64,000 nt of DNA from assembly GCF_001611675.1 (NCBI RefSeq), contig NZ_CP014766.1, positions 3,906,001 through 3,970,000 on the forward strand, read 5' to 3'. The notes beneath the pieces were generated by a model. That model did not search any database, was not told the DNA's origin, and saw only the letters and a list, made by a program, of their open reading frames with translations. The translations under genes were made by a program, and so were the position numbers. This DNA is from Pontibacter akesuensis (GTDB lineage: Bacteria > Bacteroidota > Bacteroidia > Cytophagales > Hymenobacteraceae). Of this stretch, positions 1-64,000 are shown in pieces (position 1 is the first letter of the stretch; every line of letters starts with the position of its first letter).

Positions 1-1
1 A

Positions 2-682
2 ACCTTTGTGCTAACGGCTTTTACAGCAAATGCACAGCAAAGCGCGGTGCTGCCACCACTGGTAAGCGTTAACGGCACAGGGGAGGTGCGGGTGCAGCCC
101 AACGAAGTGGTGGTAAACCTGGGCGTGGAGTCAAGGGAGAAAACCCTTGATGCTGCCCGTAAGGAAACAGACAAGAAAGCGGCAGCGATTATCAGCTACC
201 TCAAAAAGCAGGGGGTGGACGCAAAAGACATGCAAACCTCTTTTGTTACCCTAAACCCCGTGTACAACAGCGGGGAGTTTGGCCGTACAAGTCCTGATTT
301 TTATGTGGCCCAAAAGAACATGACGGTGGTGATTAAGAAGCTCAACCGCTTTGATGAACTCCTGTCGGGGCTGTATGGAGTGGGGGCAAACCATGTACAC
401 GGGGTGCAGTTCCAGGTGTCCGACGTGGAGAAGTATAAGGCAGAGGCACGGAAGAAGGCAGTGGCCAACGCCAAACAAAAAGCTTCCACCCTCACCTCAG
501 AACTCGGTGCCAAAATCGGCCGCGTCTATGCCATCAGTGAGAGCGAAGGGTACCGGGGCCCACAGCCCATGTATAAAGTAGCCTTGCAGGAAGTAGCTAT
601 GGATGGTGCAGGGGGACCTTCGATAGCCGGTGGTGAAGTTGTTATCTCTGCTAACGTCGATGTAAGTTTCGTGATTGAGTAG
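2..682 (+). CDS. SIMPL domain protein (DUF541), 5' end cut by window
   Basis: The frame is open from the first bases, and the visible N-terminus (TFVLTAFTANAQQ) is the end of a Sec signal peptide with a likely cleavage after ANA, so the true start lies upstream of the window. The mature part (about 215 residues) starts with VSVNGTGEVRVQPNEV, the typical opening of SIMPL/DUF541 proteins, followed by the long helical middle and a C-terminal VVISANVDVSFVIE strand. Such proteins are secreted or periplasmic; some relatives (26 kDa periplasmic immunogenic protein, the YggE group) are linked to oxidative stress, but no enzymatic role is established. The gene ends just before a strong bidirectional hairpin shared with the convergent gene. 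The family call is firm, the function is not. Confidence 0.88.
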   Translation, partial: TFVLTAFTANAQQSAVLPPLVSVNGTGEVRVQPNEVVVNLGVESREKTLDAARKETDKKAAAIISYLKKQGVDAKDMQTSFVTLNPVYNSGEFGRTSPDFYVAQKNMTVVIKKLNRFDELLSGLYGVGANHVHGVQFQVSDVEKYKAEARKKAVANAKQKASTLTSELGAKIGRVYAISESEGYRGPQPMYKVALQEVAMDGAGGPSIAGGEVVISANVDVSFVIE

Positions 683-711
683 CCTTATATATTGATTCAC
701 AGTCTAAGAAT

Positions 712-753
712 GCGAAAGCGGCACCAACTTTTCCAGGTTGGTGCCGCTTTCGC
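712..753. terminator. Bidirectional intrinsic terminator
   Basis: A perfect 17-bp stem (712-728 with 737-753) encloses an 8-base loop. It lies between the convergent SIMPL gene and the 772-1770 gene and probably stops transcription from both sides. T-rich flanks are short. Confidence 0.75.
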
Positions 754-771
754 GTTATACTTAACCCGGCC

Positions 772-1770
772 TTACACAGGCTTTACAAAATGCTGGATGG
801 GCTTGAAGTTATTCTGGGCGTCGAGCAGAAAGCTTAGTGGCTGCCCGGGGTTCTGGAGTATTTTATCTTCCCGAATGCTCCACGGCTTCAGCATTTCCTC
901 GAGCATGTGCGCGTAAGCAGTCATTTCCCAGGGGTTGAAGATCTCGTTTGTCACATCGTCTATTAGGGTATCGAGTACCAGTTTCGTATCGTCTGGCTTT
1001 GTGGGGCGCACGAAATACTCCGGTACCACCGCAAAGATGTAGGCGGCGTAAAAGGCTCTTGCCTTAAATTCCGCCACTTGTACAGGGTGTAGCTGCTGCC
1101 CCTGCGTAACGCCGTAAAGCCTGCCCAGGGCGCGGCCAATAATACCATTGTCCAGCAGCGTACACACCACGGCCACTGGACCAAGCTTGATGCTAAAGCA
1201 CATGGTGGTCAGCTCGTCCTGGTACTCGAAAGGCAGGTTGTCCTCTGTCGGGTCCACTTCCAACAGGAACAGGGAGCAAGGCAGAAAATCAGAAAACACC
1301 ATGGGTACCCGCAGCGACTGCAGCACCATAAAGAACATCCTGAACTTACCGAGCATTTTGGGGTCCTCGCTTACGGCATACTCAGGCATAATCAGCGGGT
1401 TCGCCTCCTTTATCAGTTCGGTTACCAGGGTGCCGTAATACATTTTGCCGATCCACTGGAAAAGACGCTGCTGCGGTAACTGCCGCACGCCCTCAATTCC
1501 CTGGGAAAAAGCGCTTTCTACTTCCTCCTCCAGGGGCAGCAGGTAATGGGTGTGGCAATGGTCGCAGCAGGGAATAGTCAACTGGCCGAAGCTGGTCACA
1601 CTTTTATCGAGCAGCAGCAGCTCCTTGTCTTTGAGGTTATACTTGCGTTGCAGCCATTCAGCGAAAACAGGGGCACGGTGTTCAGTTGTGATAGCGGTTC
1701 CACACAAAAAGCAATTCGTGTCGGTAAACTGCATTTTCCCGAACGGCTCGTATAGCGATAGGTTTGTCAT
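772..1770 (-). CDS. Conserved hypothetical protein with two CxxC pairs
   Basis: 332 residues if started at the ATG at 1770; the frame is open further upstream, but that extension is Cys/Ser/Arg-rich and not protein-like. The N-terminus carries CFLCG (about residue 19) and CDHC (about residue 68), two CxxC pairs that look like a zinc knuckle of treble-clef or HNH type. The rest is mostly hydrophobic helical sequence without motifs I recognise. No signal peptide is visible. A -7 element matching the Bacteroidota consensus lies 23 bases upstream of the start, which supports this start. The protein is probably a cytoplasmic zinc-binding protein; no function is proposed. Confidence 0.72.
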   Translation of the reverse strand: MTNLSLYEPFGKMQFTDTNCFLCGTAITTEHRAPVFAEWLQRKYNLKDKELLLLDKSVTSFGQLTIPCCDHCHTHYLLPLEEEVESAFSQGIEGVRQLPQQRLFQWIGKMYYGTLVTELIKEANPLIMPEYAVSEDPKMLGKFRMFFMVLQSLRVPMVFSDFLPCSLFLLEVDPTEDNLPFEYQDELTTMCFSIKLGPVAVVCTLLDNGIIGRALGRLYGVTQGQQLHPVQVAEFKARAFYAAYIFAVVPEYFVRPTKPDDTKLVLDTLIDDVTNEIFNPWEMTAYAHMLEEMLKPWSIREDKILQNPGQPLSFLLDAQNNFKPIQHFVKPV

Positions 1771-1792
1771 TGTTTCTAGGGGTATGCAGCCG

Positions 1793-1800
1793 CAAAGATA
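1793..1800 (-). promoter_or_regulatory. Bacteroidota -7 promoter element
   Basis: On the minus strand this reads TATCTTTG, a full match to TAnnTTTG. It would start transcription about 15 bases before the ATG at 1770. I see no clear -33 TTTG. Confidence 0.5.
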
Positions 1801-1861
1801 CGGAAGTAGCCGCGAGTTCTGAAATGGATGTACCGCAGCAAACAGCGGGGGAAGGAATAAA

Positions 1862-2433: not shown

Positions 2434-3987
2434 ATGGAAAATAAAGCAGCGATTAATGTTACCGTTCCCAAGAATTACGATTCGGAATTTTGCGGTAGCA
2501 TCCCCCTACACCTGGTAAACCTGATACAGCCACATGGTGTGCTCCTGGTGTTGGATAGTGAAACTTTAAGTATCAGGCAGGCGAGTGAAAATGTGGAGCA
2601 GTACCTGGGCATTGGCCTGGAGGAGTTGCTGGAGCACGAACTTGCTGCCTTCGTGCCACAAAAGAATGTGGAGGAGATAAAGCTAAAAATCAAAGCCAAC
2701 AGCAACCACGATAAAATTCCACTTAGTCTTACCTTTCAGGTGAATGGGGAGAATGTGGCGTTTACGGCACTAGTGCACCCCAAGGAGGAATATGTGTTGG
2801 TAGAGTTGGAGGAGGCGGAAAAAGCGGTGGATGAGGTGCCGTTTATCGGACTTTATCAGCACATCAAGTACCTTACTTCGCTTTTTAAGCAGGCGGAATC
2901 CTCTGAGGCGACAGCACAACTGGCGGCTAACGAGCTGAAGAAGCTCACCGGCTTTGACCGGGTACTTGTTTATCAGTTCGATCCACAGTGGAATGGCATT
3001 GTAATAGCGCAGGCAAAAGAGGCGGGCATGGACGATTACATGGGGCTGCGCTTTCCAGCCTCTGACGTGCCCAAGCAATCCCGCGATTTATACTTCCGAA
3101 ATCCATACCGGCTCATTCCCACCCGCGATTATGCTCCTGTCAGACTTATTCCCATTGTAAACCCGCTTACTCAGCGCTTCACGGATCTTTCGGACTGTAA
3201 CCTGCGCAGTGTGGCCACCGTGCACCTGGAATACCTGAAGAACCTGGGCATACAGGCATCCATGTCGCTGCCGCTCATTATTAACAACCAGCTGTGGGGT
3301 TTAATCTCCTGCCATAACATTGCCGCCAAAAATCCCAGCTATGAGATGCGCTCAGCACTGGAGTTGCTTTCGGGTATACTTTCTGCCCAGCTGGCGAGCC
3401 AGGAAAACGAACAGGCAATCCTGTTGCGGGTGCAATTGCGAAGCATTCATGCGCGCCTGCTGGAGCAGCTATACAGCAATCAGAATTTTGCCGATGGCGT
3501 GCTCTCCGGCAGTACGAATATACAGGATTTGCTCTCGCTTTCGGGAGCGGCAGTATTGTATGAAGGCGGCATCTGGACAAGCGGAGAAACCCCGCATCAC
3601 CAGGAAATGAAAGAACTGGTATCGTGGATCAGGCGTAACAAAGGAACCTCACTTTTCGCCACGGCCAACCTGGGCAAAGACTACAGCCGCAGCGTTGCCT
3701 ACAAGGATGTAGCCAGCGGCGTTGTCGCGTTGCCGATTAACGCGGAGCAGGGGGAGTATATACTGGGCTTTCGCTCAGAGGTGCTGCAGACCATCAGTTG
3801 GGGTGGGGACCCGAACAATGCCATACAAATGGAGGCCGACGGGAAAACATACCACCCCCGTAATTCTTTCGCTACCTACCAGGAAACAGTAAAGCATACT
3901 TCCCTGCCGTGGAAGGAAGAGGAACTGGAGGCGGCGGAGGTTCTACGAAGCGCGGTGCTCGAGAAAATCATCAGAGAAAACTATTAA
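2434..3987 (+). CDS. Bacteriophytochrome photosensory protein (PAS-GAF-PHY, no kinase)
   Basis: A cytoplasmic red/far-red photoreceptor module of 517 residues. Cys20 lies just before the IQPHG motif, where bacteriophytochromes attach biliverdin. The PAS-like part covers about residues 15-120. The GAF domain (about 130-320) has PASDVP with Asp211, His264 in ATVHLEYL, and LWGLISCH with the second conserved His. The PHY domain (about 330-510) has the tongue motifs SWGG and PRNSF (475-479). All key chromophore-pocket residues I can check are present, so light sensing is likely. Usually a histidine kinase follows in the same protein; here the chain stops after PHY. The next gene, 142 bases downstream and on the same strand, is a large hybrid kinase and the obvious output partner (inference). 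No heme oxygenase gene for biliverdin supply is in the window. Confidence 0.95.
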   Translation: MENKAAINVTVPKNYDSEFCGSIPLHLVNLIQPHGVLLVLDSETLSIRQASENVEQYLGIGLEELLEHELAAFVPQKNVEEIKLKIKANSNHDKIPLSLTFQVNGENVAFTALVHPKEEYVLVELEEAEKAVDEVPFIGLYQHIKYLTSLFKQAESSEATAQLAANELKKLTGFDRVLVYQFDPQWNGIVIAQAKEAGMDDYMGLRFPASDVPKQSRDLYFRNPYRLIPTRDYAPVRLIPIVNPLTQRFTDLSDCNLRSVATVHLEYLKNLGIQASMSLPLIINNQLWGLISCHNIAAKNPSYEMRSALELLSGILSAQLASQENEQAILLRVQLRSIHARLLEQLYSNQNFADGVLSGSTNIQDLLSLSGAAVLYEGGIWTSGETPHHQEMKELVSWIRRNKGTSLFATANLGKDYSRSVAYKDVASGVVALPINAEQGEYILGFRSEVLQTISWGGDPNNAIQMEADGKTYHPRNSFATYQETVKHTSLPWKEEELEAAEVLRSAVLEKIIRENY

Positions 3988-4129: not shown

Positions 4130-7100
4130 ATGAATGAAAATGCACCCCAAAAGAAGGAAAGAAAACAGTTAACAGACCATTACCTGGTAGGTATTGGTGC
4201 TTCTGCGGGCGGGTTAGAGGCCATACATAAGCTTTTTGATCACCTACCCAACAACTCAAGCTTTTCATTTATCATTATTCAGCACCTTTCGCCGGACCAC
4301 AAAAGCCTGATGGCCGAGCTCCTGACCAAGCACACGCGCATGCAAGTGCAGGAGGCCGAAGACAAGATGCTGACCAGGCCCAACTGCGTGTACGTGTTGC
4401 CGAGCGGCAAGCAACTGACCATTGAGCACGGGCGCCTGCGCCTGGCCGATAAGGCGCGTAGCAGGGAACCTAACTTCGCCATTGACCTTTTTTTTGAGTC
4501 CATGGCCAAAGAGCGTGGCCGTCTGGCAGTGGGCGTGGTGCTGTCAGGTACGGGCACTGATGGCACAAAAGGAGCCATCGCCATAAAGGCGGCCGGAGGC
4601 ATGGTGGTGGTGCAGGACCCAAAGACTGCCAAGTTTGATGGAATGCCTCGCAGCGCCATCGATACAGGGGCGGTGGACTTTGTGTTGCCCCCAGAGCAGA
4701 TGCCGGAGCAGATACTCGACTACACCCAAAACGTGCTGCAGGCATCCATCGAAAATACAGAAGCAGGCAACAAAGGAGATGAGGCTATATTGAATGAAAT
4801 TCTGGACCTGATCTGCTCCCAGACCAAGACGGATTTTACAAACTACAAGCGCCCTACCATTGAACGCAGGCTCAGTAAGCGCATGGAGGTGGTGCAGGTT
4901 AAGAACCTGGCCGGCTACCTTTCCTACCTTCGGGAAAACCCGACGGAAGTGAAGATTCTCTCCCAGGAATTCCTGATTGGCGTTACGCGCTTTTTCCGTG
5001 ACAACGAAGCTTTTGAGGTGCTGGAGAAGGAGGTAATCCCTGCTATCTTGGCGAAAAAAGACCCGGAGGAAAGTATAAAAGTATGGGTGGCAGCCTGTAG
5101 CACAGGAGAGGAGGCCTATTCCCTAGCCATGCTGTTTCAGGAACACTGCCGCAAAACCGGAGCTGAGGCAAAGGTGAAAATTTTCGCGACGGATATAGAC
5201 TCACGTGCCATCAGCTTCGCCTCTAAGGGGATTTACCCTGCCTCAATTGCTAAAGAAGTGTCACCTGATTTTCTGAAGCGGTACTTTTACCAGAAGGGCA
5301 ACAAGTATGTGATCAATGAGGATCTTCGGAAACTGGTGGTATTTGCCCAGCATGATTTGCAGAAAGACCCGCCGTTCAGCAAGATCGACTTGGTAACATG
5401 CCGCAACATGCTCATTTACCTGAACCCGAACCTGCAGAACAAGGTGCTTTCCCTGTTTCCGTATGCGCTGAACATGGGCGGCTACCTGATGCTGGGGCCA
5501 AGTGAGCACATCGGGGATCTGAAGTCGTTTTTTGTGGAAGAAAACCGCAAATGGAAGCTTTACCAGAAGGTGAAGGACAGCATGGGCGTTCGGCAGAACT
5601 ACGGTATCTCTGACTATACCCCAGCTTTCTCGGCGGGAACCCAGCCTAACATTAAAAATAACCAGTTGCTGCAGTACAGTGAGTCCTTTATGGATGCCGT
5701 GGCCGATGACTTTAGGGTGACGGGCCTGTATGTGGATGAAAGTTACCAGTTGCTGCATGGCATCGGCGACATCAACCGCTTCCTGAAGTTCCCTAAAAAG
5801 CGCCTGCAGTTCAACCTGCTCAAAATGGTTCCTGATGAACTGGCCGTGTCCATCAGCGTGGGCATCCGTAAGGCGCTGAAGAATAACCAGAACGTCCCGG
5901 CGCGGCAAGTAGCTATCAAAGAGGGCAATAAGAGCCGGCTGGTGCAGGTATCCATCAAGCTGATTGCGGCCGAGAAGAACCTGGCTAAGGTAATACTGGT
6001 GCTGCTGCAGGAGGTGGGGCCGGCTGTTGCTTCGCCAAAAGCAGCAGAACTGCCGCCGGTGGCCGACTCGGATTATTACCAGCAGCTGGCCGCGCTGGAG
6101 ATGGAGCTGAAGGAGGCGCGTGACAGCCTGCACTTGACGGTGCAGGACCTGAGCACCTCGAACGAGGAGCTGCAGTCGAGCAACGAGGAACTGATGTCCT
6201 CGAACGAGGAGCTGCAAAGTTCAAACGAAGAGATGCAGTCGCTGAACGAGGAGCTGCACACGGTAAATACTGAGCACCAGCTGAAGATAAAGGAACTGCA
6301 GGAGCTGAACGAGGACCTGGACAACTACATCCGAAGCTCCAACATTGGACAGGTTTTCCTGGACCACAACCTGGAAATACGCAAGTTTACGCCTTCGGCA
6401 CGTGAGCTCATAAATATCATGGAAGGCGATTTGGGGCGCCCGATCCATCACCTGTCCCATAACCTGAAGTATACCCAGCTCACGGAGGATATCCGGAAAG
6501 TAAACCATACCTCGGTAGAGGTGGAGCAGGAGGTAGAAACCACAGAGGGCAAGTACTTCCTGATGCGGGTTATCCCGTACCTGAAGCACGACGGCAACAA
6601 AGACGGTGTGGTGCTTAGCTTTGTGGAGGTTACAACCCTGAAGGCGCTAAGCAACGTGGTGCAGGGCGTGCTAAACAGTTCGCTCAATAGCATTATGGCT
6701 TTTAAGGTGCTGCGCGACGCTAAACAGGAAATCACCGATTTTATTTGGAGTCTGCTTAACCATAAAGGGGAGGAGCTGATCGGTAAATCCTTTGTGCACC
6801 TGTCGGGGGAGAATATCCTGCCCGACATGCCTTTTATTCGCAAGAGCGGCTTATTTAAGAAATTTGTACACGTGGTGGAGTCAGGGCAGCCGTTGCACAT
6901 TGAGCAGCAGCTGGAGATCAGGGGCACGCGCGCCTGGTATGAGATTGCCGCCGTGAAGATGGGCGATGGCGTGGCGGTGACCATGGCCAACATTACCGAG
7001 AAGAAAAACACAGAGGAGAAAATACTGCTGGCGTACGAGGAGCTGAAGAAGGCCGAGGAAAACCTGATCAGCCTGAACGGCCAGTTGGAAGCACGGGTTT

Positions 7101-8248
7101 TGGAGCGAACGCAGGAGTTGGCTGCCAGCGAGGAGCGGTTCAGGCTGGTGTCGATGGCCACCAATGACGTGGTGTGGGACTGGGACCTGGTCAGCAACTC
7201 GATGTGGTGGAGCGATAGCCTGGAGAAGACTTTGGGCTTTGCCAGAGAGGAACTTGCCTATGGCGTGAACGGGTGGTTTGAGCGGGTGCACCCCGAAGAC
7301 CGCGAGGCGATGGTAGCCGGCCTGAACCAGGCCATCAATTATGGCAAGGAGCAGTGGTCTGCAGACTACAGGATACGCCGGGCGGACGATACGTATGCCT
7401 ATGTCTCGAACAGGGCCTACATCATGCATAACGAGTACAAGGTGCCCTACCGCATTCTGGGTTCTTTCATCGACCTTTCAAACCTGAAGGAGACGCAGGA
7501 GAAGCTTCAGAGCTCCAACGCGCACTTGCTGAAAGTAAACGCCGACCTGGACACATTTGTGTACACGGCCTCGCACGACCTGAAGGCGCCGATCGCCAAT
7601 ATTGAGGGGCTGCTACTGCTGTTGGAAGACCAGATAGAGGCTGCCGGGCCGCTGCCGGGCGAACCGACCAAACCGGTGTTCGACATGGTGAAGGACTCTA
7701 TCAGCCGCTTTAAAAACGTGATTAAGGACCTCACCGATATTGCCAAGGTGCAGCGCGACGTGGACGGCGCCGCCGAGCAGGTGGACCTGCTGGAGATACT
7801 GGAGAACGTGAAAGGCAGCATGAAGGACTGGCTGGATACTGAGAAGGCACAGATTGTAGTCGACTTCAAATGTCGCCCGAAAATTAAGTTTTCCACTAAA
7901 AACATGCATAGCGTTCTTTACAACCTGATCAACAACGCTGTGAAGTATAAATCGCCGGACAGGAACCCCGAGGTGCGCCTGAAGCTGGAGCAGCAGGACC
8001 ATTACCTGGTATTGTCGGTGCAGGACAATGGCCTGGGCATGAGCAGCGACAACCTGTCGAAGATGTTTACCCTATTCAAGCGCTTTCACTCTCACGTAGA
8101 AGGAACCGGCATGGGTCTTTACATTGTGAAGCGGATAATGAACAACGCTGGAGGCAAAGTGAATGTAGCAAGTGAAGAAGGCGTAGGCACTACCTTTAAA
8201 GTATACTTTAAGCACGAGGTAACCGAGCCAAGCCCCATCGCCGGCTAA
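4130..8248 (+). CDS. CheB-CheR-PAS histidine kinase fusion
   Basis: 1372 residues from the ATG at 4130; an open extension to a GTG at 4091 is not conserved-looking. Order of parts: CheB-type methylesterase (about 17-205) with Ser25 in GASAGG, His52 in QHLSPDH and Asp144 in GTGTDG; CheR-type methyltransferase (about 220-490) with the SAM loop ACSTGEEAYS and the CRNMLIYL motif; a coiled coil (about 650-730) of repeated SNEEL heptads; PAS-like domains, one clear at about 1000-1125; HisKA with His1149 in ASHDLKAPI; and a HATPase with NAVKYK, DNGLGM and GMGLYIVKR. There is no receiver domain and no membrane segment. Known relatives couple methylation-type modules to phosphorelay in non-chemotaxis pathways. 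Position directly after the phytochrome gene suggests it transmits the light signal. No receptor, CheA or CheW gene is nearby. Confidence 0.93.
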   Translation: MNENAPQKKERKQLTDHYLVGIGASAGGLEAIHKLFDHLPNNSSFSFIIIQHLSPDHKSLMAELLTKHTRMQVQEAEDKMLTRPNCVYVLPSGKQLTIEHGRLRLADKARSREPNFAIDLFFESMAKERGRLAVGVVLSGTGTDGTKGAIAIKAAGGMVVVQDPKTAKFDGMPRSAIDTGAVDFVLPPEQMPEQILDYTQNVLQASIENTEAGNKGDEAILNEILDLICSQTKTDFTNYKRPTIERRLSKRMEVVQVKNLAGYLSYLRENPTEVKILSQEFLIGVTRFFRDNEAFEVLEKEVIPAILAKKDPEESIKVWVAACSTGEEAYSLAMLFQEHCRKTGAEAKVKIFATDIDSRAISFASKGIYPASIAKEVSPDFLKRYFYQKGNKYVINEDLRKLVVFAQHDLQKDPPFSKIDLVTCRNMLIYLNPNLQNKVLSLFPYALNMGGYLMLGPSEHIGDLKSFFVEENRKWKLYQKVKDSMGVRQNYGISDYTPAFSAGTQPNIKNNQLLQYSESFMDAVADDFRVTGLYVDESYQLLHGIGDINRFLKFPKKRLQFNLLKMVPDELAVSISVGIRKALKNNQNVPARQVAIKEGNKSRLVQVSIKLIAAEKNLAKVILVLLQEVGPAVASPKAAELPPVADSDYYQQLAALEMELKEARDSLHLTVQDLSTSNEELQSSNEELMSSNEELQSSNEEMQSLNEELHTVNTEHQLKIKELQELNEDLDNYIRSSNIGQVFLDHNLEIRKFTPSARELINIMEGDLGRPIHHLSHNLKYTQLTEDIRKVNHTSVEVEQEVETTEGKYFLMRVIPYLKHDGNKDGVVLSFVEVTTLKALSNVVQGVLNSSLNSIMAFKVLRDAKQEITDFIWSLLNHKGEELIGKSFVHLSGENILPDMPFIRKSGLFKKFVHVVESGQPLHIEQQLEIRGTRAWYEIAAVKMGDGVAVTMANITEKKNTEEKILLAYEELKKAEENLISLNGQLEARVLERTQELAASEERFRLVSMATNDVVWDWDLVSNSMWWSDSLEKTLGFAREELAYGVNGWFERVHPEDREAMVAGLNQAINYGKEQWSADYRIRRADDTYAYVSNRAYIMHNEYKVPYRILGSFIDLSNLKETQEKLQSSNAHLLKVNADLDTFVYTASHDLKAPIANIEGLLLLLEDQIEAAGPLPGEPTKPVFDMVKDSISRFKNVIKDLTDIAKVQRDVDGAAEQVDLLEILENVKGSMKDWLDTEKAQIVVDFKCRPKIKFSTKNMHSVLYNLINNAVKYKSPDRNPEVRLKLEQQDHYLVLSVQDNGLGMSSDNLSKMFTLFKRFHSHVEGTGMGLYIVKRIMNNAGGKVNVASEEGVGTTFKVYFKHEVTEPSPIAG

Positions 8249-12522: not shown

Positions 12523-13785
12523 ATGACTCGGATTATTTTGATTCTGGGGGTAATATCCCTTCTCCTAGATTGGTATGTTTTCAAGGGCTTGCAACGCATA
12601 ACAGCCGGATGGAAATCCGCGCGGCTGCGCAAAACCTTTAACTGGGGGTATTGGACCTTTTTGCTGGGCTTCCTTATCTTTTTTGCCTACGGCATCTACA
12701 CACGCTTTGAAACGGACAGATCTACCCAATTATCGGTCTGGGGGATTGCCGGCTTTCTCACCTTGCTAGTCACTAAGCTGGTGTTTGTGCTGGTGCTGTT
12801 TGCAGAGGATATTGTTCGCCTGGTCATCGCCGCTTTTCGCTTCTTCGCAGGCCTCGGCAGAGAGGCGGCAAGGGAGAAGCCGCTGATGCCCGCGCGCAGG
12901 AAATTTGTGAGCCAAGTGGCCCTCGCGCTGGCCGCTGTTCCCTTTGTTTCTTTTTTGTACGGCATTGTCAAGGGCAAGTATGACTACACGGTATACCGCC
13001 ATACGCTGTACTTTGAGGACCTGCCCGAGGCCTTTGACGGCTTCACCATCACACAGGTGTCGGATGTGCATGCGGGGAGTTTTGACGATGCGGAGGCCGT
13101 GCAGCGCGGGATCGACATGATCAAAGCCCAAAAGTCTGATCTTTTTGTTTTCACAGGCGACCTGGTGAACGACCAGGCCACGGAGATTGTACCGTACATG
13201 GGCATGTTCAGCCAGATAAAGGCGCCCTACGGGCAGTTCTCCATCTTGGGAAACCACGACTACGGCATGTACCACGACTGGCCAAGCGAGGAGGCAAGGC
13301 TCGAAAATATCGCGCAGCTAAAGCAGTATCATGCGCAGCTAGGGTACAGGCTGCTGCTGGATGAAAGCGTTTCCATTGAGAAGGATGGCCAGCAGCTTTC
13401 GCTGGTGGGAGTGGAGAACTGGGGCGAGGGCTTCATCAAATTAGGTGATCTGGATAAAGCACTGCTGGGGGTGCCTGATGATGCGTTCAAAGTGCTGCTG
13501 TCGCATGACCCCTCGCATTGGGACAATGTGGTGAAGAATCACCCGGCGCACGTGCACCTCACGCTGTCGGGCCACACGCACGGCATGCAGGTAGGGGTGG
13601 AGACGCCGCTGGTGCGGTGGAGCCCGGCACAGTACCGCTACGAGAACTGGGCAGGGCTGGCGAAGGCAAAGGACAGGTTGCTGTACGTGAACCGCGGCTT
13701 TGGCTTTATCGGCTTCTCGGGCAGGGTGGGTATCTGGCCCGAGATAACGGTGCTGGAGCTGAAGCGGGGCAAACCGCAAGTATAA
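12523..13785 (+). CDS. Membrane-anchored metallophosphoesterase
   Basis: 420 residues. The first 150 contain four or five membrane helices; the rest is a calcineurin-like phosphoesterase domain with all metal motifs: DVH (Asp181, His183), GDLVND, GNHD, SHDPSHW and GHTH (His351, His353). This architecture is common in Bacteroidota and related to YkuE/YaeI, where members act on lipid-linked phosphates such as UDP-diacylglucosamine, but the substrate here is unknown. The catalytic domain should follow a helix around residues 125-150 and face one side of the inner membrane. The stop codon overlaps a CAAGTATAAA motif that forms a hairpin with a downstream inverted copy. Confidence 0.92.
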   Translation: MTRIILILGVISLLLDWYVFKGLQRITAGWKSARLRKTFNWGYWTFLLGFLIFFAYGIYTRFETDRSTQLSVWGIAGFLTLLVTKLVFVLVLFAEDIVRLVIAAFRFFAGLGREAAREKPLMPARRKFVSQVALALAAVPFVSFLYGIVKGKYDYTVYRHTLYFEDLPEAFDGFTITQVSDVHAGSFDDAEAVQRGIDMIKAQKSDLFVFTGDLVNDQATEIVPYMGMFSQIKAPYGQFSILGNHDYGMYHDWPSEEARLENIAQLKQYHAQLGYRLLLDESVSIEKDGQQLSLVGVENWGEGFIKLGDLDKALLGVPDDAFKVLLSHDPSHWDNVVKNHPAHVHLTLSGHTHGMQVGVETPLVRWSPAQYRYENWAGLAKAKDRLLYVNRGFGFIGFSGRVGIWPEITVLELKRGKPQV

Positions 13786-13809
13786 ACCTCCTGTCAGCAT
13801 TTATACTTG
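13777..13809. repeat. Inverted pair of CAAGTATAAA motifs
   Basis: CAAGTATAAA at 13777-13786 and its exact complement at 13800-13809 can form a 10-bp hairpin with a 13-base loop. The left copy contains the stop codon of the metallophosphoesterase gene. Confidence 0.7.
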
Positions 13810-18997: not shown

Positions 18998-19028
18998 CTA
19001 ATTTAAAGGAACAAGTATAAATCTTTGC

Positions 19029-28496: not shown

Positions 28497-30806
28497 CTAT
28501 TGCTGCTCATCTCTGGAAAAGGAGTATGGAAAGGCACTTTCCGATATTCCGCGGGTGGTGTTTGGTGTTACGACCATGTCAAATTTAAGCTTTCCGCCCT
28601 TTAGAATTGTTTCGTGCGATATCCAGTTCTTATCATACTTCTTTCCATTGAGCCTGGCCTGCTGTATGTATAGGTTTTGAGCGCTGTTGTTGGGTGCTTC
28701 AATCACAAATTCTTTCCCGCTTTCCAGCTTCAGCGTTATCTTCCTGAAGAGTGGTGCGCCGATCACATACTGGTTTACCGCTGGCGTAACCGGGTAAAAG
28801 CCCATGGCCGAGAACACGTACCAAGCCGAGGTCTGGCCGTTGTCTTCGTCGCCGATGTAGCCATCTGGAATCGGTTTATACATGCGGTTCATGGTTTCGC
28901 GCACCCAGTACTGTGCTTTCCAGGGAGCGCCGGCATAGTTATACAGGTAGATCATGTGCTGTATCGGCTGGTTGCCGTGCGCGTATTGGCCCATGTTAGC
29001 AATCTGCATCTCGCGTATTTCATGGATCACACCACCGTAGTAGCTCTCGTCGTACACGGGAGGCAGCGAAAAAACAGAGTCCAGCTTGGCTACAAAGTTT
29101 CGCTTGCCGCCCATCAAATCCACCAGCCCCTGCACATCATGGAAAACGGACCAACTGTAGTGCCAGCTATTACCCTCTGTAAACGCGTCGCCCCACTTAA
29201 AGGGGTTAAACGGTGACTGAAAAGTACCATCCTGGTTTTTGCCCCGCATCAACCCTGTTGAAGGATCGAAGAGGTGGCGGTAGTTCTGACTACGTTTGGC
29301 GTACAGGTCAATTTCCTGTTGCGGTTTCTTCAAGGCTTTCGCCAGTTGGTAGATGGCAAAATCATCGTAGGCATACTCCAGCGTACGGGCCGCGTTCTCG
29401 TTGATTTTTACATCATAAGGAACATATCCCAGTTTGTTGTAATAGTCGGCGCCGGCACGACCAATGGCTGTAATCGGTCCTTCGTTGTTGGCGCCATGCA
29501 GCAGTGCCTCATACAGTGTTTCGATGTCGTAGCCGCGCAGGCCTTTCATGTAGGCGTCGGCCACCACCGAGGCAGAGTTATTGCCTACCATAATGTTGGC
29601 ATAGCCCGGGCTTGACCACTCAGGCAGCCAGCCTCCCTCTTTATAATCATTTACAAGCCCTGCCTGCATTTCTTTGTTGATGGCCGGATACACCAGGTTC
29701 AGGAACGGGTAAAGGGCACGGAAAGTATCCCAGAAGCCAGTGCCGGCAAAGCGGTAGCCGTCGTATGTTTTCCCGTCGTAGGGGCTGTAATGCACGGGTT
29801 CTCCAGCCGCATTCAGCTCATACATTTTGTGCGGGAAAAACAGCGTGCGGTAGAGGCAGGAGTAAAAGGTGCGCAGTTGCTCGTCTGTGCCTCCCTCAAC
29901 GATGATGCGGCTCAGGGCTTTATGCCACTTTTCTTTGGCTTTGCGTTTGGTAGCCTCAAAATCATCCTTTGCCAATTCCCGCTGCAGGTTTAACTCTGCC
30001 TGCTCCATACTTATAAAAGAGGAGGCGACCCGCAGGTTAACCTTTTCGCCCTTCGCTGTTTTAAAGCCTACAATTGCTCCGGCATGGTTGGCCTCCATCT
30101 CCAGCGCATCTTTTACCAGGGTAGAGTCGTGCCAGGTATAGGCCACCTTCAAGGGCTTATCAATATAGATGACGAAGTAGTTTTTGAAATTTACCGGGTT
30201 GCTGCGTGCGGCGCGGGTAGTATAACCGATGATTTTGTTTTGTTCCGGAAGCACCTTCACGTATGAGCCTTTGTCCAGGGCGTCGATGACGATAAAGGAG
30301 CTGTCGGATTTGGGGTAGGTAAAACGGAATTGCGCGGCGCGTTCGGTTGGAGTGAACTCTGTGGTGACGTCGTGGTCAGCCAGATAGACGCTGTAGAAAT
30401 AGGGTTTGGCTACCTCAGATTTGTGTGAAAACCAGCTGGCCCTGTCCTCCTCCCGAAACTTAACTTTGCCCGTTACGGGCATAATCACGAACTGACCGTA
30501 GTCGTTCATCCAGGGCGAGGGCTGGTGTGTTTGCTTAAAGCCTTTTATCTGGTCCGCATCATACGTATAGGCCCAGCCGTTTCCCATTTTACCCGTTTGG
30601 GCGGTCCAGAGGTTCATGCCCCAGGGTACAGCCACAGCAGGGTAGGTGTTGCCATTCGACAAGCTGACTTTTGAGTCAGTGCCCATAAGCGGGTTTACCA
30701 ATTCCTCGGGTTCAAACGGCTTTTGTTTTTGCTGTGCAAGGGCGGGAGACACTGCGCCTACAGAAAATGCCAGGAGAAGGTAAGTTATTTGCGATTTTAA
30801 TTTCAT
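28497..30806 (-). CDS. GH92 alpha-mannosidase, secreted, second copy
   Basis: 769 residues with signal peptide ending at SPALAQQ. The opening (EELVNPLMGTDSKVSLSNGNTYPAVAVPWG) and later motifs (FTEGNSWHYSWSVFHD, GNQPIQHMIYLYN, GDEDNGQTSAWYVF) place it in GH92, but the sequence differs strongly from the 25532 copy, so it is a separate subgroup rather than a recent duplicate. Differences at the active-site rim, with GNQPIQH against GNEPSHH, suggest another linkage preference. It converges on the first GH92 gene. Together with the ROK kinase this makes a small mannoside-use group. Confidence 0.95.
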   Translation of the reverse strand: MKLKSQITYLLLAFSVGAVSPALAQQKQKPFEPEELVNPLMGTDSKVSLSNGNTYPAVAVPWGMNLWTAQTGKMGNGWAYTYDADQIKGFKQTHQPSPWMNDYGQFVIMPVTGKVKFREEDRASWFSHKSEVAKPYFYSVYLADHDVTTEFTPTERAAQFRFTYPKSDSSFIVIDALDKGSYVKVLPEQNKIIGYTTRAARSNPVNFKNYFVIYIDKPLKVAYTWHDSTLVKDALEMEANHAGAIVGFKTAKGEKVNLRVASSFISMEQAELNLQRELAKDDFEATKRKAKEKWHKALSRIIVEGGTDEQLRTFYSCLYRTLFFPHKMYELNAAGEPVHYSPYDGKTYDGYRFAGTGFWDTFRALYPFLNLVYPAINKEMQAGLVNDYKEGGWLPEWSSPGYANIMVGNNSASVVADAYMKGLRGYDIETLYEALLHGANNEGPITAIGRAGADYYNKLGYVPYDVKINENAARTLEYAYDDFAIYQLAKALKKPQQEIDLYAKRSQNYRHLFDPSTGLMRGKNQDGTFQSPFNPFKWGDAFTEGNSWHYSWSVFHDVQGLVDLMGGKRNFVAKLDSVFSLPPVYDESYYGGVIHEIREMQIANMGQYAHGNQPIQHMIYLYNYAGAPWKAQYWVRETMNRMYKPIPDGYIGDEDNGQTSAWYVFSAMGFYPVTPAVNQYVIGAPLFRKITLKLESGKEFVIEAPNNSAQNLYIQQARLNGKKYDKNWISHETILKGGKLKFDMVVTPNTTRGISESAFPYSFSRDEQQ

Positions 30807-33290: not shown

Positions 33291-33599
33291 GTATGGCTTT
33301 AAACAAAGTATAATTAGGAGTACACGTAAACTATAGGGTGTAACCCCAAAACGGGCTAAAATGTTAAGGTACAAGTATAGCACCCTGACGCTGCTGACCT
33401 TTCGCAAGCGGCAGGGCTTGTTCAGGCAAAGTTAAAAATTCGCTGGGAAACGGGTTATTTATACTTGCTTAAGGATTTCCGGAGACTTACATTGCCATCA
33501 ATCGTTACCTTTGGCAAAATCCGGATTTGCAGGAGTGCAGCGTATACTTGATCGCGCGCACCGCCAAAACCGCTTCCATCAGACACAGCAACAACACAG
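33291..33599. other. Divergent intergenic region with four AAGTATA motifs
   Basis: This spacer separates the DAC-like gene from the divergent FUSC gene. It holds AAGTATA/TATACTT at 33306, 33373, 33460 and 33543, four copies in about 240 bases, two on each strand. Apart from the promoter at 33506 I see no gene; the 75-codon frame at 33511 is a shadow. Confidence 0.6.
33506..33513 (+). promoter_or_regulatory. -7 element for the FUSC gene
   Basis: TACCTTTG, a full TAnnTTTG match, 87 bases upstream of the ATG at 33600. Confidence 0.5.
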
Positions 33600-37857: not shown

Positions 37858-37980
37858 CAAGTATAAACCTGGCCGCCGTTCTTTTTTCTTTATTTGCAAA
37901 GGCATGCGCCTTAACTGTGATGTAGCAAAGCAATGCTGCAAGTATAAATTAGAGCAATCCAATGTGTGGGAAGTATAAAT
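37858..37980. repeat. Cluster of three AAGTATAAA motifs
   Basis: CAAGTATAAA at 37858-37867 and 37939-37948 and GAAGTATAAA at 37970-37979, all in the same orientation, between the convergent ClC and cyclase genes. No conventional terminator hairpin is visible in this spacer. Confidence 0.65.
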
Positions 37981-42068: not shown

Positions 42069-42173
42069 GACATAAACTTCTTACTTTGCTCCAATGCTGA
42101 TGAAGTATCAAGTATAAATGTTTTATAGCCAAGCTCGCGTTTGGGCAAGAATAGAGACAAAGGACTTAAAAAG

Positions 42174-43336: not shown

Positions 43337-45223
43337 TCAGCCTTTACCTGTTCCTTCTGCTTCCGAAACATGGAGCATGCGGAGAAGGGCTGTTTTCTTG
43401 TACTGGTGTTGCTGCATCCGCTTCATGATATCATCCAGCAGGGCAATGGATTTTAGGATGTAAGTGCCTTTGTTCAGCATTACGCAGTCTGCGCGCTGGG
43501 CCATGGCCGCATCGGTGATTTCGGCGCGGGAGGGGCGTCCTTTCTTGGTGAGTTTCTCCAGCACCTGCGTTGCCCACACAACCGGCAGGTGTGCCGCCTC
43601 TGCAATCCATAAAATTTCCTCCTGTACCTCGGCCAGCCGTTGCCAGCCCAACTCAACAGCCAGGTCACCCCGCGCGATCATAATGCCGACGGGATGGTTG
43701 CGCATGAGCGTGAGCAGCAGTTGCGGGAGGTTCGCGAATGCGGCCTTCGTTTCTATCTTCAGCATGATTCCCACATGCGAGGAATTGTGCTGCTGCAGGG
43801 CCTGCTGCAATTCCTCCACCATCTCCAGGTGGCTGACAAAAGACAGGTTAACGACATCGGCATGCTGCACTACAAAGGCTAAGTCATTCCTGTCTTTCTC
43901 GGTCAAAGTAAAGAGCTCCAGGTCGCTCTCAGGCAGGTTTATGCCCTTGTCAGGCCTAAGTTTGCTGCCGCTTTCATCCGCGCCGGTTATTTTAACTCTG
44001 ATCACATCTGGTGTAACCTCAGTTATTTCGCCTTCTATTTCGCCATCATCAAACAAGATTGGCTCCCCCACCTTTACCCGCGAAAAAACTTCCGGCAGGG
44101 TGCAGGAGATATGGGCTGGTTTCAATACATTTCCATCCTGGTCGAGTTTGGCAGGTTCACCCGGAATATCCTGGCGATGCAGTAGCAACTCCTGCCCAGC
44201 CTTCAATATGAGCGGAGTTACCATGGCGGGCATCGCCCCCAGCTTTTCTGCAACCGCCTCGCCCGACTCATCCATGACGCGCAGCTCAGTGCCTGAGCCC
44301 AGGTAAGCCGATTTGTAAAGATGCACCAAAGCGCCCTGTTTGTTTTTCTGGACAACGGTAAACTTTCGCTTCCTGCGCCGGGTATCCACAAACCGGATGT
44401 CGCTTCCTTCGGTAAGCAAGTTAACCCATTCCGGTGAGACAGTGAGTGCTACATCAACAGGTTCCGGTGCCGGCTTGCCTTTAGGCGCCAGCCATACTTT
44501 CGCCGGCATCAATATATTGCCCAGTTCATCGATTAAGGGATGAATGCCCATTACCTTTGGCCCCGGTTTCAAAGCACCTGTGCGGAGTTTGGGTCCCATC
44601 AAATCAAACAGGATGGTACACTGCCGGCCTGTTTCCTTCTCGGCCTTTTTGATGTGCCGCACCATTTTCTCCCACACTTTTTCGTCGTCGTGGGCGCAAT
44701 TGATGCGGGCACAGTTCATGCCAGCGGCCACTAAATCACGCACCTGCTTGTAGTGGTCGGCCATTTCTTTTGCAAAGGTTACCATGATTCGCCCGGCACG
44801 GCCGGGGGAAGGAGCGCCGAGCAGTGCTTTGATATTCGCGTCTAAGTGAAAACGGGAAGAAGGGAAAGGCTCCAGAACGGGCATTGATTCGCTTACGTGG
44901 CCCAATAGCAGCTGCAGCTGGTTGCGCACAGCCGTTAAGTTGGCCAGCACATGGCTCTCCGACCTCCCGAGCGAGGACAGGCCCAGACGCGAAAGCTCGA
45001 CCTGTAGCTCGCGTATGTCATGCTTGCGCAGGGCCAGGTAATGCAGCAGATTTTTGCTGCTTTCGAGGTGCTTCGGGTGCACCTGTTCCAGCTGTGAGAC
45101 AAACTTTTTCTCTTGCGCTACTGCTTCCTGCTGCAGCTTCTCAAGTTGCTTCAGCAGCTTCGTAAGCGCTGTTTTTGCATATATCTTTTTTGCAGCCGGC
45201 TTTGACTTCTGATCCTCTTTCAT
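43337..45223 (-). CDS. Long atypical pyruvate kinase
   Basis: 628 residues. The first 135 form a helical extension with a coiled coil (KLLKQLEKLQQEA) not found in the standard 470-residue enzyme. The catalytic part then has GMNCARINCAHDD, FDLMGPKLRTG (phosphate/K+ loop), a much enlarged B domain, MLKIETKAAF, ARGDLAVELGW and WATQVLEKLTKKG, and stops after AMAQRADCVMLNKGTYI, without the regulatory C-terminal domain. Catalytic Lys and Glu residues are in place. It likely converts phosphoenolpyruvate and ADP to pyruvate and ATP, but regulation must differ, and another acceptor substrate is not excluded. Similar long forms occur in some bacteria. Monocistronic. Confidence 0.88.
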   Translation of the reverse strand: MKEDQKSKPAAKKIYAKTALTKLLKQLEKLQQEAVAQEKKFVSQLEQVHPKHLESSKNLLHYLALRKHDIRELQVELSRLGLSSLGRSESHVLANLTAVRNQLQLLLGHVSESMPVLEPFPSSRFHLDANIKALLGAPSPGRAGRIMVTFAKEMADHYKQVRDLVAAGMNCARINCAHDDEKVWEKMVRHIKKAEKETGRQCTILFDLMGPKLRTGALKPGPKVMGIHPLIDELGNILMPAKVWLAPKGKPAPEPVDVALTVSPEWVNLLTEGSDIRFVDTRRRKRKFTVVQKNKQGALVHLYKSAYLGSGTELRVMDESGEAVAEKLGAMPAMVTPLILKAGQELLLHRQDIPGEPAKLDQDGNVLKPAHISCTLPEVFSRVKVGEPILFDDGEIEGEITEVTPDVIRVKITGADESGSKLRPDKGINLPESDLELFTLTEKDRNDLAFVVQHADVVNLSFVSHLEMVEELQQALQQHNSSHVGIMLKIETKAAFANLPQLLLTLMRNHPVGIMIARGDLAVELGWQRLAEVQEEILWIAEAAHLPVVWATQVLEKLTKKGRPSRAEITDAAMAQRADCVMLNKGTYILKSIALLDDIMKRMQQHQYKKTALLRMLHVSEAEGTGKG

Positions 45224-50596: not shown

Positions 50597-50761
50597 ACTG
50601 CTTTGATTTTTGGAATATTAAGATACAAATGCTTTGGCACAAAGCAATTTATACTTGCTGGCAGATTCAGCCCTTTTTTCATACTTCCTGATTGATATGT
50701 TGTCGCTACAGTATTTCTCCAGAATTGAGCGGTAAAGTTGTACTGCAAAAAGACAACATAC

Positions 50762-59608: not shown

Positions 59609-59657
59609 TTTATACTTGACGCAGTCTCCAAAAGTATCTTTAACCTACAAGTATAAA
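59609..59657. repeat. Inverted pair of CAAGTATAAA motifs after mreB
   Basis: TTTATACTTG (59609-59618) and CAAGTATAAA (59648-59657) are exact complements and flank about 29 bases. The left copy begins directly after the mreB stop codon, as at the metallophosphoesterase gene. Confidence 0.7.
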
Positions 59658-60553: not shown

Positions 60554-60702
60554 GTATAGCAGAGAAAACTGATAAAGAACCTGGTTATTTTAAAACAGCA
60601 TCTTTGTTGATGTAGAAGAGAACTGCATCTTGAATTGAACATGGTTGCGTCAGCAAAAGCTAATCAAGAATATCTGGCCCAACCGGCCTGTGGCAAAGCA
60701 TT

Positions 60703-61971: not shown

Positions 61972-62447
61972 TTGTATGAGGTATAGACGATGAAAGTCGA
62001 AGATAACTTCAAATATAATTCAAAATGTGGTGTGATTGCATAAGGCGGTATGGTCAAGTTTCAAGTAGGCTGCGATATGCAAGGCTTGGAACACAAAAGC
62101 CCGATTCCGAAAGCAGTGTCAGCGTCACGGCAAGCAACCTATCTGCACCCTCTTAAACTATATGCACATTTTTTCAATCCAGATTCGACCTACAGCTCGC
62201 CCTATACTGACGGATTTTGCTGCCTTCATTTTTCCAGATAAAAAGGAGAGGCTTTCGTTCAATGCAGGCCTTGGCTCGAAGATGTGCCAAATAATTTTAG
62301 TAAAGCATTAAGAATATAAAGTATAAGTATTATGAGATTAGTTTATGCTATTTATATTTACTGAAATTGATGCACCATCCCTTCTTCCTGCTGCTGATCC
62401 CTTGCAGTCACGCTAAACTTATTGTTTAACAATTTATAAATAACGCT
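61972..62447. other. Divergent intergenic region
   Basis: Besides the minus-strand promoter at 62010, the last 170 bases are AT-rich and probably hold the promoter of the lipoprotein gene. One AAGTATA at about 62319. The 63-codon frame at 62050 shows no family features. Confidence 0.45.
62010..62017 (-). promoter_or_regulatory. -7 element for the ethylene-receptor-like kinase
   Basis: On the minus strand this reads TATATTTG, a full TAnnTTTG match, about 40 bases upstream of the ATG at 61971. Confidence 0.48.
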
Positions 62448-63275
62448 ATGACTAAAGTATGGACTCGCGGCTATAAGCTGCTGGGAATGTTTGTTGCGCT
62501 CGCCCTTTTTGGTTGCGAGAGCCAGGAAGACGTGCAGCCAGGTAGCATGCAGTCTTCCCTGGAGCAGGAGCAGAAGAAAGTAAAAACGACTGTTTATTAC
62601 GGGCCACTTACAGCGTATTTAGGCGGAACCGCCCGCACTTGGGTTGAAGTGGTGAATGGCAAGCCTATTGCCATAGGAATAGAACTCTCTGAGGACGTAC
62701 TGGTGAATCTTCCGGAGGAGATGGGAGAGTTTGTGCTTAAGCTCCCCGGTCAGGCACATTCCACCGGAATAAAGACCATAATGGTGGGGTGGAACCCAAT
62801 GGGACACGATCCTGAAGGCGTGTACACAATCCCTCACTTCGACTTTCACTTTTATACCATCACCCATGGGCAGATTAAGCAGATCACCGGAGGAGTGGAT
62901 GAAGGGGCCTATACGCTCCAGGAAAAGGGGATTTTCCCCGCAGTCTATACTTTTGGCCCCGTGCCTTTTGCTGTCCCCCACATGGGCGTGCACTGGTCGG
63001 ATATAACCTCTCCTGAGTTTTCACCTGCAGGTTTTAGCAAAACATTTATTTATGGCTCAAACAAGGACAGGGTCACCTTCCTGGAGCCTATGATTACACT
63101 TGCCTACCTCAGGAGCCTGGGGGCAAATCAATCAGTTGAGACACCCATCCCTTCATTGCTCAGGTACGAGGACCCGGGTTACTACCCAGAGTCCTACACC
63201 GTCACGTATGATGCTGCTTCCGGCACCTACAGTATTGCCTTAACAGACCTGATATGGCATAACAGGAATAAGTAA
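62448..63275 (+). CDS. DUF5602-type (TTHB210-like) lipoprotein
   Basis: 275 residues. Lipobox ALFGC (Cys about 23). The body starts VYYGPLTAYLGGTARTWVEV and has a His-rich motif HFDFHFYTI (about 127-135) and PFAVPHMGVHWSD (about 176), as in secreted proteins carrying the DUF5602/TTHB210-like domain. The clustered His and Asp could bind metal (inference). It is anchored in the envelope. Function unknown. A perfect terminator follows directly, and the gene converges on a GlxA-type regulator. Confidence 0.82.
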   Translation: MTKVWTRGYKLLGMFVALALFGCESQEDVQPGSMQSSLEQEQKKVKTTVYYGPLTAYLGGTARTWVEVVNGKPIAIGIELSEDVLVNLPEEMGEFVLKLPGQAHSTGIKTIMVGWNPMGHDPEGVYTIPHFDFHFYTITHGQIKQITGGVDEGAYTLQEKGIFPAVYTFGPVPFAVPHMGVHWSDITSPEFSPAGFSKTFIYGSNKDRVTFLEPMITLAYLRSLGANQSVETPIPSLLRYEDPGYYPESYTVTYDAASGTYSIALTDLIWHNRNK

Positions 63276-63277
63276 TT

Positions 63278-63319
63278 AAAAAGCAGGCTCCTTACCTGAT
63301 CGTAAGGAGCCTGCTTTTT
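63278..63319. terminator. Strong bidirectional terminator
   Basis: A perfect 18-bp stem (63278-63295 with 63302-63319), loop of six, with A- and T-runs at the ends, between two convergent genes. Confidence 0.9.
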
Positions 63320-63355
63320 GATTTTGTTGATGTGTTGGTGTTTATAGATTCAGCT

Positions 63356-64000
63356 TTAAGGAATCAGAAGTTTGTCTTTCTGCTGGACCTGCTTGTTATA
63401 CTTGTTGCGGTACTCGATGGGCGTAAGTCCGGTGATTTTCTTGAAGACGGTCCGAAAGGCTTTGGTATCGGTATACCCCACGTCAAACAATACTTCGTTG
63501 ATGTTTTTTCTACTGGTTTCGAAACTGCGTTTAGCAGCTTCTATTTTAACCCGTTGCATATACTCCAGCACCGAGTTATGGGTGGCTTTATAAAAACGGC
63601 GCTCAAAACTGCGCCGGCCTACGGCTACTTTTTCAGCTAACTGGTCCACTGAAATCCTGTCATTGTAATTTTTTTCGATGTATTCCTGAGCCGCTTTTAC
63701 AGCTGAGTCATTGTGGCCTTTCTGCCCCTGAAACAAAGCAAAAGCTGCCTGGCTGTTTCGGTCTATATCAATGGCAAAATATTTCGAGGCAAGTATAGCT
63801 GTTTCGCGGTCTGTATATTTTTCCACCAAGTGCAGCAACAGGTTCCAATAAGAGTTGGCCCCGCCACTGGAGTACAGCCGGTTTTCCTCGGTCACTATAC
63901 TTCCATCAGCCACCTCCACATCCGGAAACATTTCCCTGAACTCATTGGCAAAGCCCCAGTGGGTTGAGCACTTTTTACCAGCTAGCAAACCCGTTGAAGC
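63356..64000 (-). CDS. GlxA-type AraC regulator, start cut by window
   Basis: At least 214 residues visible, with the frame open to the window end. The first part (GLLAGKKCSTHWGF and YSSGGANSYWNLLLHLVEKY) is the C-terminal half of a DJ-1/PfpI-like amidase-fold domain as in GlxA/FtrA regulators. The second part (about the last 100 residues) is an AraC DNA-binding domain with two helix-turn-helix motifs (LAEKVAVGRRSFERRF and VGYTDTKAFRTVFKK). The nucleophile region lies outside the window. Effector unknown. Confidence 0.92.
   Translation of the reverse strand, partial: ASTGLLAGKKCSTHWGFANEFREMFPDVEVADGSIVTEENRLYSSGGANSYWNLLLHLVEKYTDRETAILASKYFAIDIDRNSQAAFALFQGQKGHNDSAVKAAQEYIEKNYNDRISVDQLAEKVAVGRRSFERRFYKATHNSVLEYMQRVKIEAAKRSFETSRKNINEVLFDVGYTDTKAFRTVFKKITGLTPIEYRNKYNKQVQQKDKLLIP

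Follow-up and report, generated by a model that had tools for sequence, protein, structure and literature searches.

Why does one seven-base word, AAGTATA, recur on both strands throughout a 64,000-base stretch of the Pontibacter akesuensis genome (RefSeq assembly GCF_001611675.1, contig NZ_CP014766.1; bases 3906001-3970000 of contig 1, hereafter the window), in genes and in the spacers between them? The genome comprises 4.83 Mb in two contigs, and an initial annotation of the window had read the word as a genome-wide signal, which the counts below support. We consider it probable that Pontibacter has a self-mark of the DNA-uptake type and that the fuller word AAGTATRR, with CAAGTATAAA as its best form, represents one of its dialects. 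Among the functions that the annotation had offered, an uptake-type sequence fits best, because the word has thousands of copies dispersed over both strands, clade-specific dialects of a shared form, a scarcity on a conjugative replicon and a conservation exceeding that of its flanks.

The window holds 78 copies of AAGTATA (41 on the plus strand and 37 on the minus strand), whereas 100 dinucleotide shuffles gave a mean of 4.99 and a maximum of 10. More than 60 copies had been estimated by eye, and a copy lies within 3 bases of each of the ten coordinates that were then named. The copies cited as spacer examples are real, but those at 13778 and 33373 are not clean spacer sites, since the former overlaps the stop codon of an open reading frame (ORF) ending at 13785 and the latter falls within the listed ORF 32142-33407, which has a TTG start. 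The two bases after AAGTAT are mostly purines; AAGTATRR is therefore the better word, with 105 copies in the window (56 plus, 49 minus) against a dinucleotide-shuffle mean of 5.7, and CAAGTATAAA occurs 14 times (8 plus, 6 minus). The leftmost bases of the AAGTATRR copies and the spans of CAAGTATAAA are as follows.

AAGTATRR, plus strand (56), part 1: 431, 2039, 5071, 5079, 7943, 8272, 8552, 9365, 9507, 10283, 12976, 13778, 15493, 16169, 16686, 17080, 18985, 19013, 19125, 19614, 22881, 23690, 24870, 25736, 27846, 31557, 33306, 33373
AAGTATRR, plus strand, part 2: 36923, 37859, 37940, 37971, 42110, 45558, 45962, 46394, 46428, 47049, 48463, 50194, 50561, 52911, 53580, 54233, 55166, 56103, 56261, 59649, 59695, 59753, 59830, 60470, 60538, 62319, 62455, 63791
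AAGTATRR, minus strand (49), part 1: 755, 1637, 3088, 9276, 11312, 12499, 13801, 13984, 14096, 16308, 17715, 19340, 19855, 20825, 21267, 22028, 22316, 23308, 25477, 25511, 25569, 26070, 28096, 28633, 30005
AAGTATRR, minus strand, part 2: 31118, 33459, 36169, 36601, 37317, 39963, 43299, 44492, 47827, 48711, 48948, 50649, 50679, 52399, 54263, 54986, 55333, 58340, 58533, 59610, 60703, 62945, 63396, 63895
13777..13786, plus, CAAGTATAAA, overlapping the stop codon of the ORF ending at 13785; inverted pair with 13800
13800..13809, minus, CAAGTATAAA, inverted pair with 13777
19012..19021, plus, CAAGTATAAA
22315..22324, minus, CAAGTATAAA
33458..33467, minus, CAAGTATAAA
37858..37867, plus, CAAGTATAAA, in a spacer
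37939..37948, plus, CAAGTATAAA, in a spacer
42109..42118, plus, CAAGTATAAA
43298..43307, minus, CAAGTATAAA
45557..45566, plus, CAAGTATAAA, in a spacer
50648..50657, minus, CAAGTATAAA
56260..56269, plus, CAAGTATAAA
59609..59618, minus, CAAGTATAAA, in a spacer; inverted pair with 59648
59648..59657, plus, CAAGTATAAA, in a spacer

The excess holds for the whole genome, in which CAAGTATAAA is found 838 times against 8 for its reversed control and AAGTATRR 7217 times against 672. In a 464-kb sample of the genome, made up of the window and 20 stretches of 20 kb each, a Markov model of order 3 predicts 104 copies of AAGTATA, 31 of AAGTATAA and 2.3 of CAAGTATAAA, and 561, 295 and 72 are observed, respectively, so the excess that the annotation had wished to see corrected in this way stays. 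Under a maximal-order model of the window alone AAGTATA is absent from the top 15 seven-mers, because its subwords AAGTAT and AGTATA are over-represented too. Over 504 kb, AAGTATAA reaches 32 times its dinucleotide expectation, and a single change at any of its bases 1-6 brings the ratio to 0.8-4.5; base 7 tolerates G (9.6 times), and base 8 tolerates G or C (16.6 and 14.6 times).

The 688 copies of AAGTATRR in the 464-kb sample, with genes predicted by a simple codon-usage script, comprise 233 in genes in the sense orientation, 210 in genes in antisense, 231 in spacers and 14 on edges. Thirty synonymous-codon shuffles gave means of 31 sense and 14 antisense copies (443 observed in genes against about 45), the spacer copies compare with 13-36 expected from Markov models of order 1 to 3, and genes carry 1.15 copies per kb where spacers carry 2.89. 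The Lys-Tyr and Ile-Leu codon pairs, which the annotation had named as a possible full explanation without any spacer excess, thus do not account for the word, and a codon-pair origin is rejected on the synonymous shuffling.

Along the chromosome, the density ranges from 0.90 to 1.95 per kb across 21 segments with no regional pattern, and the gaps between words are near exponential and Poisson-like (667 gaps, coefficient of variation 1.04). Of the 62 pairs no more than 60 bases apart, 25 are inverted and 37 direct, which is no excess of inverted ones; the density is 3.3 per kb in convergent, 3.1 in tandem and 2.6 in divergent spacers. A terminator or promoter signal was rejected on these grounds, spacers of all orientations being alike and 443 of the 688 copies lying in predicted genes; the transcription-end function once suggested is disfavored likewise. 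The second contig, of which 100 of the 116 kb were read, holds 22 copies of AAGTATRR against 148 expected from the chromosome, a comparison that concerns one replicon. Its genes include those for a relaxase of the MobA/VirD2 type, a TraG P-loop protein and a coupling protein, so that it looks conjugative. Word-free stretches of more than 3 kb on the chromosome include SusC/SusD-like pairs, recognized by eye, and a stretch of 40.7% GC.

We surveyed the word in 50 species genomes of Pontibacter (G000-G049), counting words de novo in 20 kb around comEC and in more sequence for some genomes. The counts of CAAGTATAAA fall at 311-1049 in 20 genomes, 236-501 in three mixed ones and 19-138 in the other 27, with 2-22 for the reversed controls, and many genomes low in CAAGTATAAA have a different word. 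The placement in Pontibacter (Bacteroidota, Cytophagales, Hymenobacteraceae) agrees with a protein of the window, for which 11 loci were retrieved that include seven of Rufibacter and one of Pontibacter fetidus, and with G014, which is identical to P. fetidus BT213 at all 2876 bases that the two share. The dialects, called by eye from the word tables with no fixed threshold, are distributed as follows.

Word A (AAGTATRR), 20 genomes: G000, G001, G003, G005, G006, G009, G010, G015, G019, G020, G021, G022, G024, G025, G026, G032, G034, G043, G044, G049
Word B (AGGTATAG), 12 genomes: G002, G004, G011, G018, G023, G030, G031, G039, G040, G042, G046, G048
Word C (AACTATAG), 4 genomes: G008, G017, G028, G038
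Mixture of C and A, 3 genomes: G012, G014, G045
Word D (ATATATRR), 1 genome, called from 80 kb of that one genome: G035
Wordless, 6 genomes: G007, G013, G027, G029, G033, G047
Weak traces, 4 genomes: G016, G036, G037, G041

All four words take the common form A-x-x-TAT-R-R. The 12 B genomes each have 2823-5222 copies of AGGTATAG genome-wide (65-133 for the controls), and the other 38 genomes 173-833; the count of G001 is inflated by C1:1944098-1946633, a stretch with at least 39 copies of AGGTATAG on the same strand at intervals of about 66 bases, resembling the repeats of a CRISPR array. The counts of AACTATAG are 6288-8208 in G008, G014, G017, G028 and G038, 2617 in G045, 2002 in G012, 907 in G049 and 70-476 in the other 42. 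In the midpoint-rooted tree from six comEC-locus proteins, each taken from 38 to 49 of the 50 genomes, the 12 B genomes are monophyletic, as are the seven genomes with C or the mixture, each with support of 1.0. The dialect labels (A, B, C with mixtures, D, and none with weak) change seven times on this tree, and at least 20 times in 1000 shuffles; G032 and G049, which both carry A, adjoin the B clade. The two-word genomes G012, G014 and G045 may be shifting from one dialect to another, or their receptor may read A as well as C. As a separate observation, the stretch G028:C1:500001-520000 of a C genome contains 27 A and 50 C words, and two other stretches of G028 have 4 A words each.

The words are better conserved than their flanks by a factor of about two. 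In the comEC region the word is identical in a relative in 1151 of 2327 comparisons (50%) in clade A, 1272 of 2301 (55%) in clade B and 257 of 563 (46%) in clade C, against 22% for in-phase flanking 8-mers in each clade; these comparisons share sites and hence are not independent. As wrong-dialect controls, the A word is conserved at 16% in clades B and C and the B word at 29-30% in A and C. In codon alignments with gapped positions set aside, A words coincide in 2262 of the 4959 comparisons among A genomes; against B genomes, none of 2298 comparisons pairs an A word with another. Turnover in place from A sites into B words was considered and dropped, as only 61 of the 2298 aligned comparisons show it, perhaps no more than shared codons give. 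A mobile repeat such as a repetitive extragenic palindrome (REP) was also rejected: there is little conservation more than 2-3 bases away from the word, and the word positions in genes align with relatives at graded mismatches (gapped positions set aside, insertion not counted).

These patterns would follow if a surface or periplasmic DNA receptor preferred word-bearing DNA, mostly from its own kind, and if such DNA were passed by a ComEA-like helix-hairpin-helix (HhH) protein and the ComEC channel into the cytoplasm, where DprA and RecA would recombine it. The word could then spread by molecular drive through recombining chromosomal DNA, genes and spacers alike, because, as we propose, word-bearing fragments would replace wordless alleles more often than the reverse; it would not build up on conjugative DNA. 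A shift in the preference of the receptor would let the genome drift to a new word and so produce clade-specific dialects. We infer that these bacteria are competent, that uptake is the step at which the word acts, and that a protein other than a pilin serves as the receptor. With somewhat less confidence than in the self-mark itself, we favor an independently evolved, pilus-free, sequence-specific uptake system, with a new outer-membrane or secreted receptor that reads A-x-x-TAT-R-R and whose changes gave at least four dialects acting as barriers to gene exchange between species of the genus. If so, DNA self-marking arose again in a phylum lacking the type IV pilus machine, and competence is to be expected in many Pontibacter. 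The dialects would then give a direct way to find the outer DNA receptor of Bacteroidota, via a surface protein that changes with the word, and a handle for Pontibacter genetics, with foreign DNA recognizable as word-poor stretches.

The genes for such a route are widely present. Both comEC and dprA were found in all 50 genomes (each interrupted by stops in G020 and G040), and a ComEA-like HhH frame of 304-346 amino acids in 49 of 50; genes of these three kinds are also found in non-competent bacteria. The platform protein of type IV pili and the type II secretion system (T2SS; PF00482, T2SSF) was detected in 0 of the 50 genomes and in 13 of 14 control genomes, and a receptor should therefore differ in kind from ComP. 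DUF5689, the candidate receptor domain of Riemerella, occurs in 22 of the 50 genomes with a distribution unrelated to the dialects. Among its loci viewed in five genomes, the neighbors are SusC/SusD-like by eye in G002, G012, G044 and G028; the domain of G000 belongs to a secreted protein that resembles a nuclease. The genes adjoining the ComEA-like gene in 20 genomes showed, by eye, no match with the presence of the word.

G020, a single contig, provides a natural experiment for the loss of competence, with comEC, the ComEA-like gene and dprA, three unlinked genes, all interrupted and many A words still present. At its comEC and ComEA-like loci 21 genes were matched, of which 17 are whole in one frame and 2 are partial single matches, and the only split ones are comEC and the ComEA-like gene; no split gene was seen in G021, G005 and G031. 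The A ten-mer count of G020, 311, is the lowest of the 20 A genomes, and together with the interrupted genes it counts in favor of an uptake-type mark. The ratio of one-mismatch relics, 1.31 in G020 against 1.14-1.50 in the other A genomes, is not decisive for word decay.

Several observations speak against an uptake-type self-mark. Erosion in G020 is not clear: it keeps 9 of 23 shared A sites, G001 with whole genes keeps 9 of 30, and ten other genomes keep 8 of 17 to 26 of 32; moreover, relatives retain its own words in 60 of 112 cases and the flanks in 14%, and these words are as conserved as elsewhere. The draft genome G040 has interrupted comEC and dprA yet 5041 B words, and these interruptions may reflect recent loss or draft error. 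All six wordless genomes carry whole comEC, ComEA-like and dprA genes, so that the competence genes allow for the word without predicting it. The wrong-dialect control for the C word, conserved at 60% in clade A and 87% in clade B (38 and 26 sites, not independent), makes the outcome of these controls mixed. Some long word-free chromosomal stretches contain ordinary core genes, and the search for an outer DNA receptor among DUF5689 proteins and the neighbors of the ComEA-like gene yielded none. AAGTATRR copies number 326 on the G-rich strand and 259 on the opposite one (56%, p = 0.006), a weak bias obtained from the sign of the GC skew in two halves, without the three segments next to the switch (2.16, 2.40 and 2.64 Mb); a mapping of strand bias relative to origin and terminus had been proposed as a check in the initial annotation. 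Lastly, we know of no uptake or transformation test for Pontibacter.

Short and very abundant genome words are known in other contexts, such as Chi, which is strongly strand-biased, and HIP1, a palindromic octamer; AAGTATRR shares their brevity and abundance and is neither strongly strand-biased nor palindromic. A Chi-type recombination hotspot, read inside the cell by an enzyme of the RecBCD/AddAB type that steers the recombination of broken or incoming DNA, would explain a very abundant 8-base word with a shared core, the slight preference for the G-rich strand and the poverty of the conjugative contig, with the dialects representing changes of the enzyme. We regard it as unlikely, given that the 56% found here is far from the strong bias of Escherichia coli Chi to one replication strand, that spacers carry the word more densely than genes do, and that about 7200 copies per 4.8 Mb far exceed the roughly 1000 Chi sites of E. 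coli. Thousands of sites at Poisson spacing, with neither a regional nor a strong strand pattern, also make a site bound by a nucleoid or segregation protein very unlikely, even though the density is even over the 21 segments and the second replicon is poor in the word. Ordinary selection would have to keep each of about 7200 sites, many of them in genes, which seems hard to sustain, and six related genomes are wordless. The weak strand bias (326:259) together with the lack of regional pattern led us to reject a segregation or Chi signal, and the nucleoid or segregation function suggested at the outset is disfavored by the same bias and by the Poisson-like spacing.

The requirement for the whole 8-base context (changes in bases 1-6 leave 0.8-4.5 times the expectation against 32 times for AAGTATAA) argues against a HIP1-like word without known cause, generated for example by repair or mutation bias, and we give this only a very slim chance. 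It would suit the very high counts without demonstrated function and the similar numbers of sense and antisense copies; however, HIP1 is palindromic and AAGTATRR is not, and a mutation bias would reach the plasmid too, where 22 copies stand against 148 expected. The least probable of these alternatives is a mark for restriction-modification or BREX-type (bacteriophage exclusion) methylation; the annotation had listed a restriction or methylation mark. A short, non-palindromic word that is scarce on the second replicon would agree with such a system, but methylation alone should drive no ten-fold excess and offers no reason for the enrichment, and the dialects follow deep clades whereas these systems turn over fast.

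To our knowledge, uptake words are established only in Pasteurellaceae and Neisseriaceae, both of which have type IV pili. We found no report of such words in Bacteroidota among the listed titles and abstract openings of open-licence papers, and an earlier report elsewhere is possible. The uptake signal sequences (USS) of Pasteurellaceae resemble the Pontibacter words in being very abundant, in having dialects and in lying on both strands; they are a different word in a different phylum, and the type IV pilus platform was not found in Pontibacter. In Neisseriaceae, the DNA uptake sequences (DUS), with ComP as the receptor, are short non-palindromic words with thousands of copies on both strands, in genes and spacers, and with dialects that differ at few bases. 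These dialects have the CTG core in common and are congruent with the core-genome tree, some relatives being without DUS (PMC3630211). Pontibacter is similar in all these features except the CTG core, its words having the A-x-x-TAT-R-R form, and it belongs to Bacteroidota. DUS lie in permissive parts of the core genome, are conserved and are absent from recently acquired genes (PMC2397512), and DUS-poor stretches serve to find conjugative elements (PMC7371117), which agrees with the scarcity of AAGTATRR on conjugative DNA. Unlike in Neisseriaceae, there is no excess of inverted pairs in Pontibacter and, with the platform protein found in none of the 50 genomes, no ComP-type pilin receptor.

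Another related system is that of Riemerella anatipestifer, likewise of the pilus-free phylum Bacteroidota, in which, in the available part of PMC8459023, transformation needs ComEC, DprA, ComF, RecA, a periplasmic triple-HhH protein and outer proteins unlike those of other machines, namely a DUF5689/choice-of-anchor J protein and a CarboxypepD-type barrel. The genes for ComEC, DprA and an HhH protein are present in Pontibacter, whereas the DUF5689/choice-of-anchor J and CarboxypepD-type barrel proteins have no clear match there, and no uptake word is described for Riemerella in that part of the paper (PMC8459023).

Outside the genus, the comparison with related genera that had been advised gave no comparable word at seven Rufibacter loci, and the A ten-mer reaches at most 32 copies in each of 150 other genomes of the family (Hymenobacteraceae). 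ARSTATAR exceeds five times its control in four of 241 genomes of the order, all of them Pontibacter (G000, G005, G014 and G034); the ratio is 2.0 in G027 and 1.2 in G035, and the highest outside Pontibacter is about 2.4 (G235). Four small genomes of another family, G235, G262, G367 and G387, have ARSTATAR at about 1.5-2.4 times the reversed control, which may reflect composition or another word system.

Other features of the window and its genome were recorded in passing. Scans of the window with Rfam and for tRNAs gave no matches. The genes and a separate repeat are listed below.

2434-3987, plus, bacteriophytochrome-like protein of 517 amino acids, scoring 272 bits and thus below the curated BphP cut-off of 1040 bits
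25532-27847, plus, GH92-family glycosyl hydrolase gene, above the curated cut-off
28497-30806, minus, neighboring GH92-family glycosyl hydrolase gene, above the curated cut-off
43337-45223, minus, pyruvate kinase, long form (PRK14725, above the cut-off); the closest relatives found are from Rufibacter (68-72% identity), with 59% for Pontibacter fetidus
464-kb sample, 11-mers such as CTCGGAGGGGC and CCCCTCCGAGG at 70-90 times the order-3 Markov expectation, each present about 10 times and forming a distinct, dispersed repeat rich in G+C

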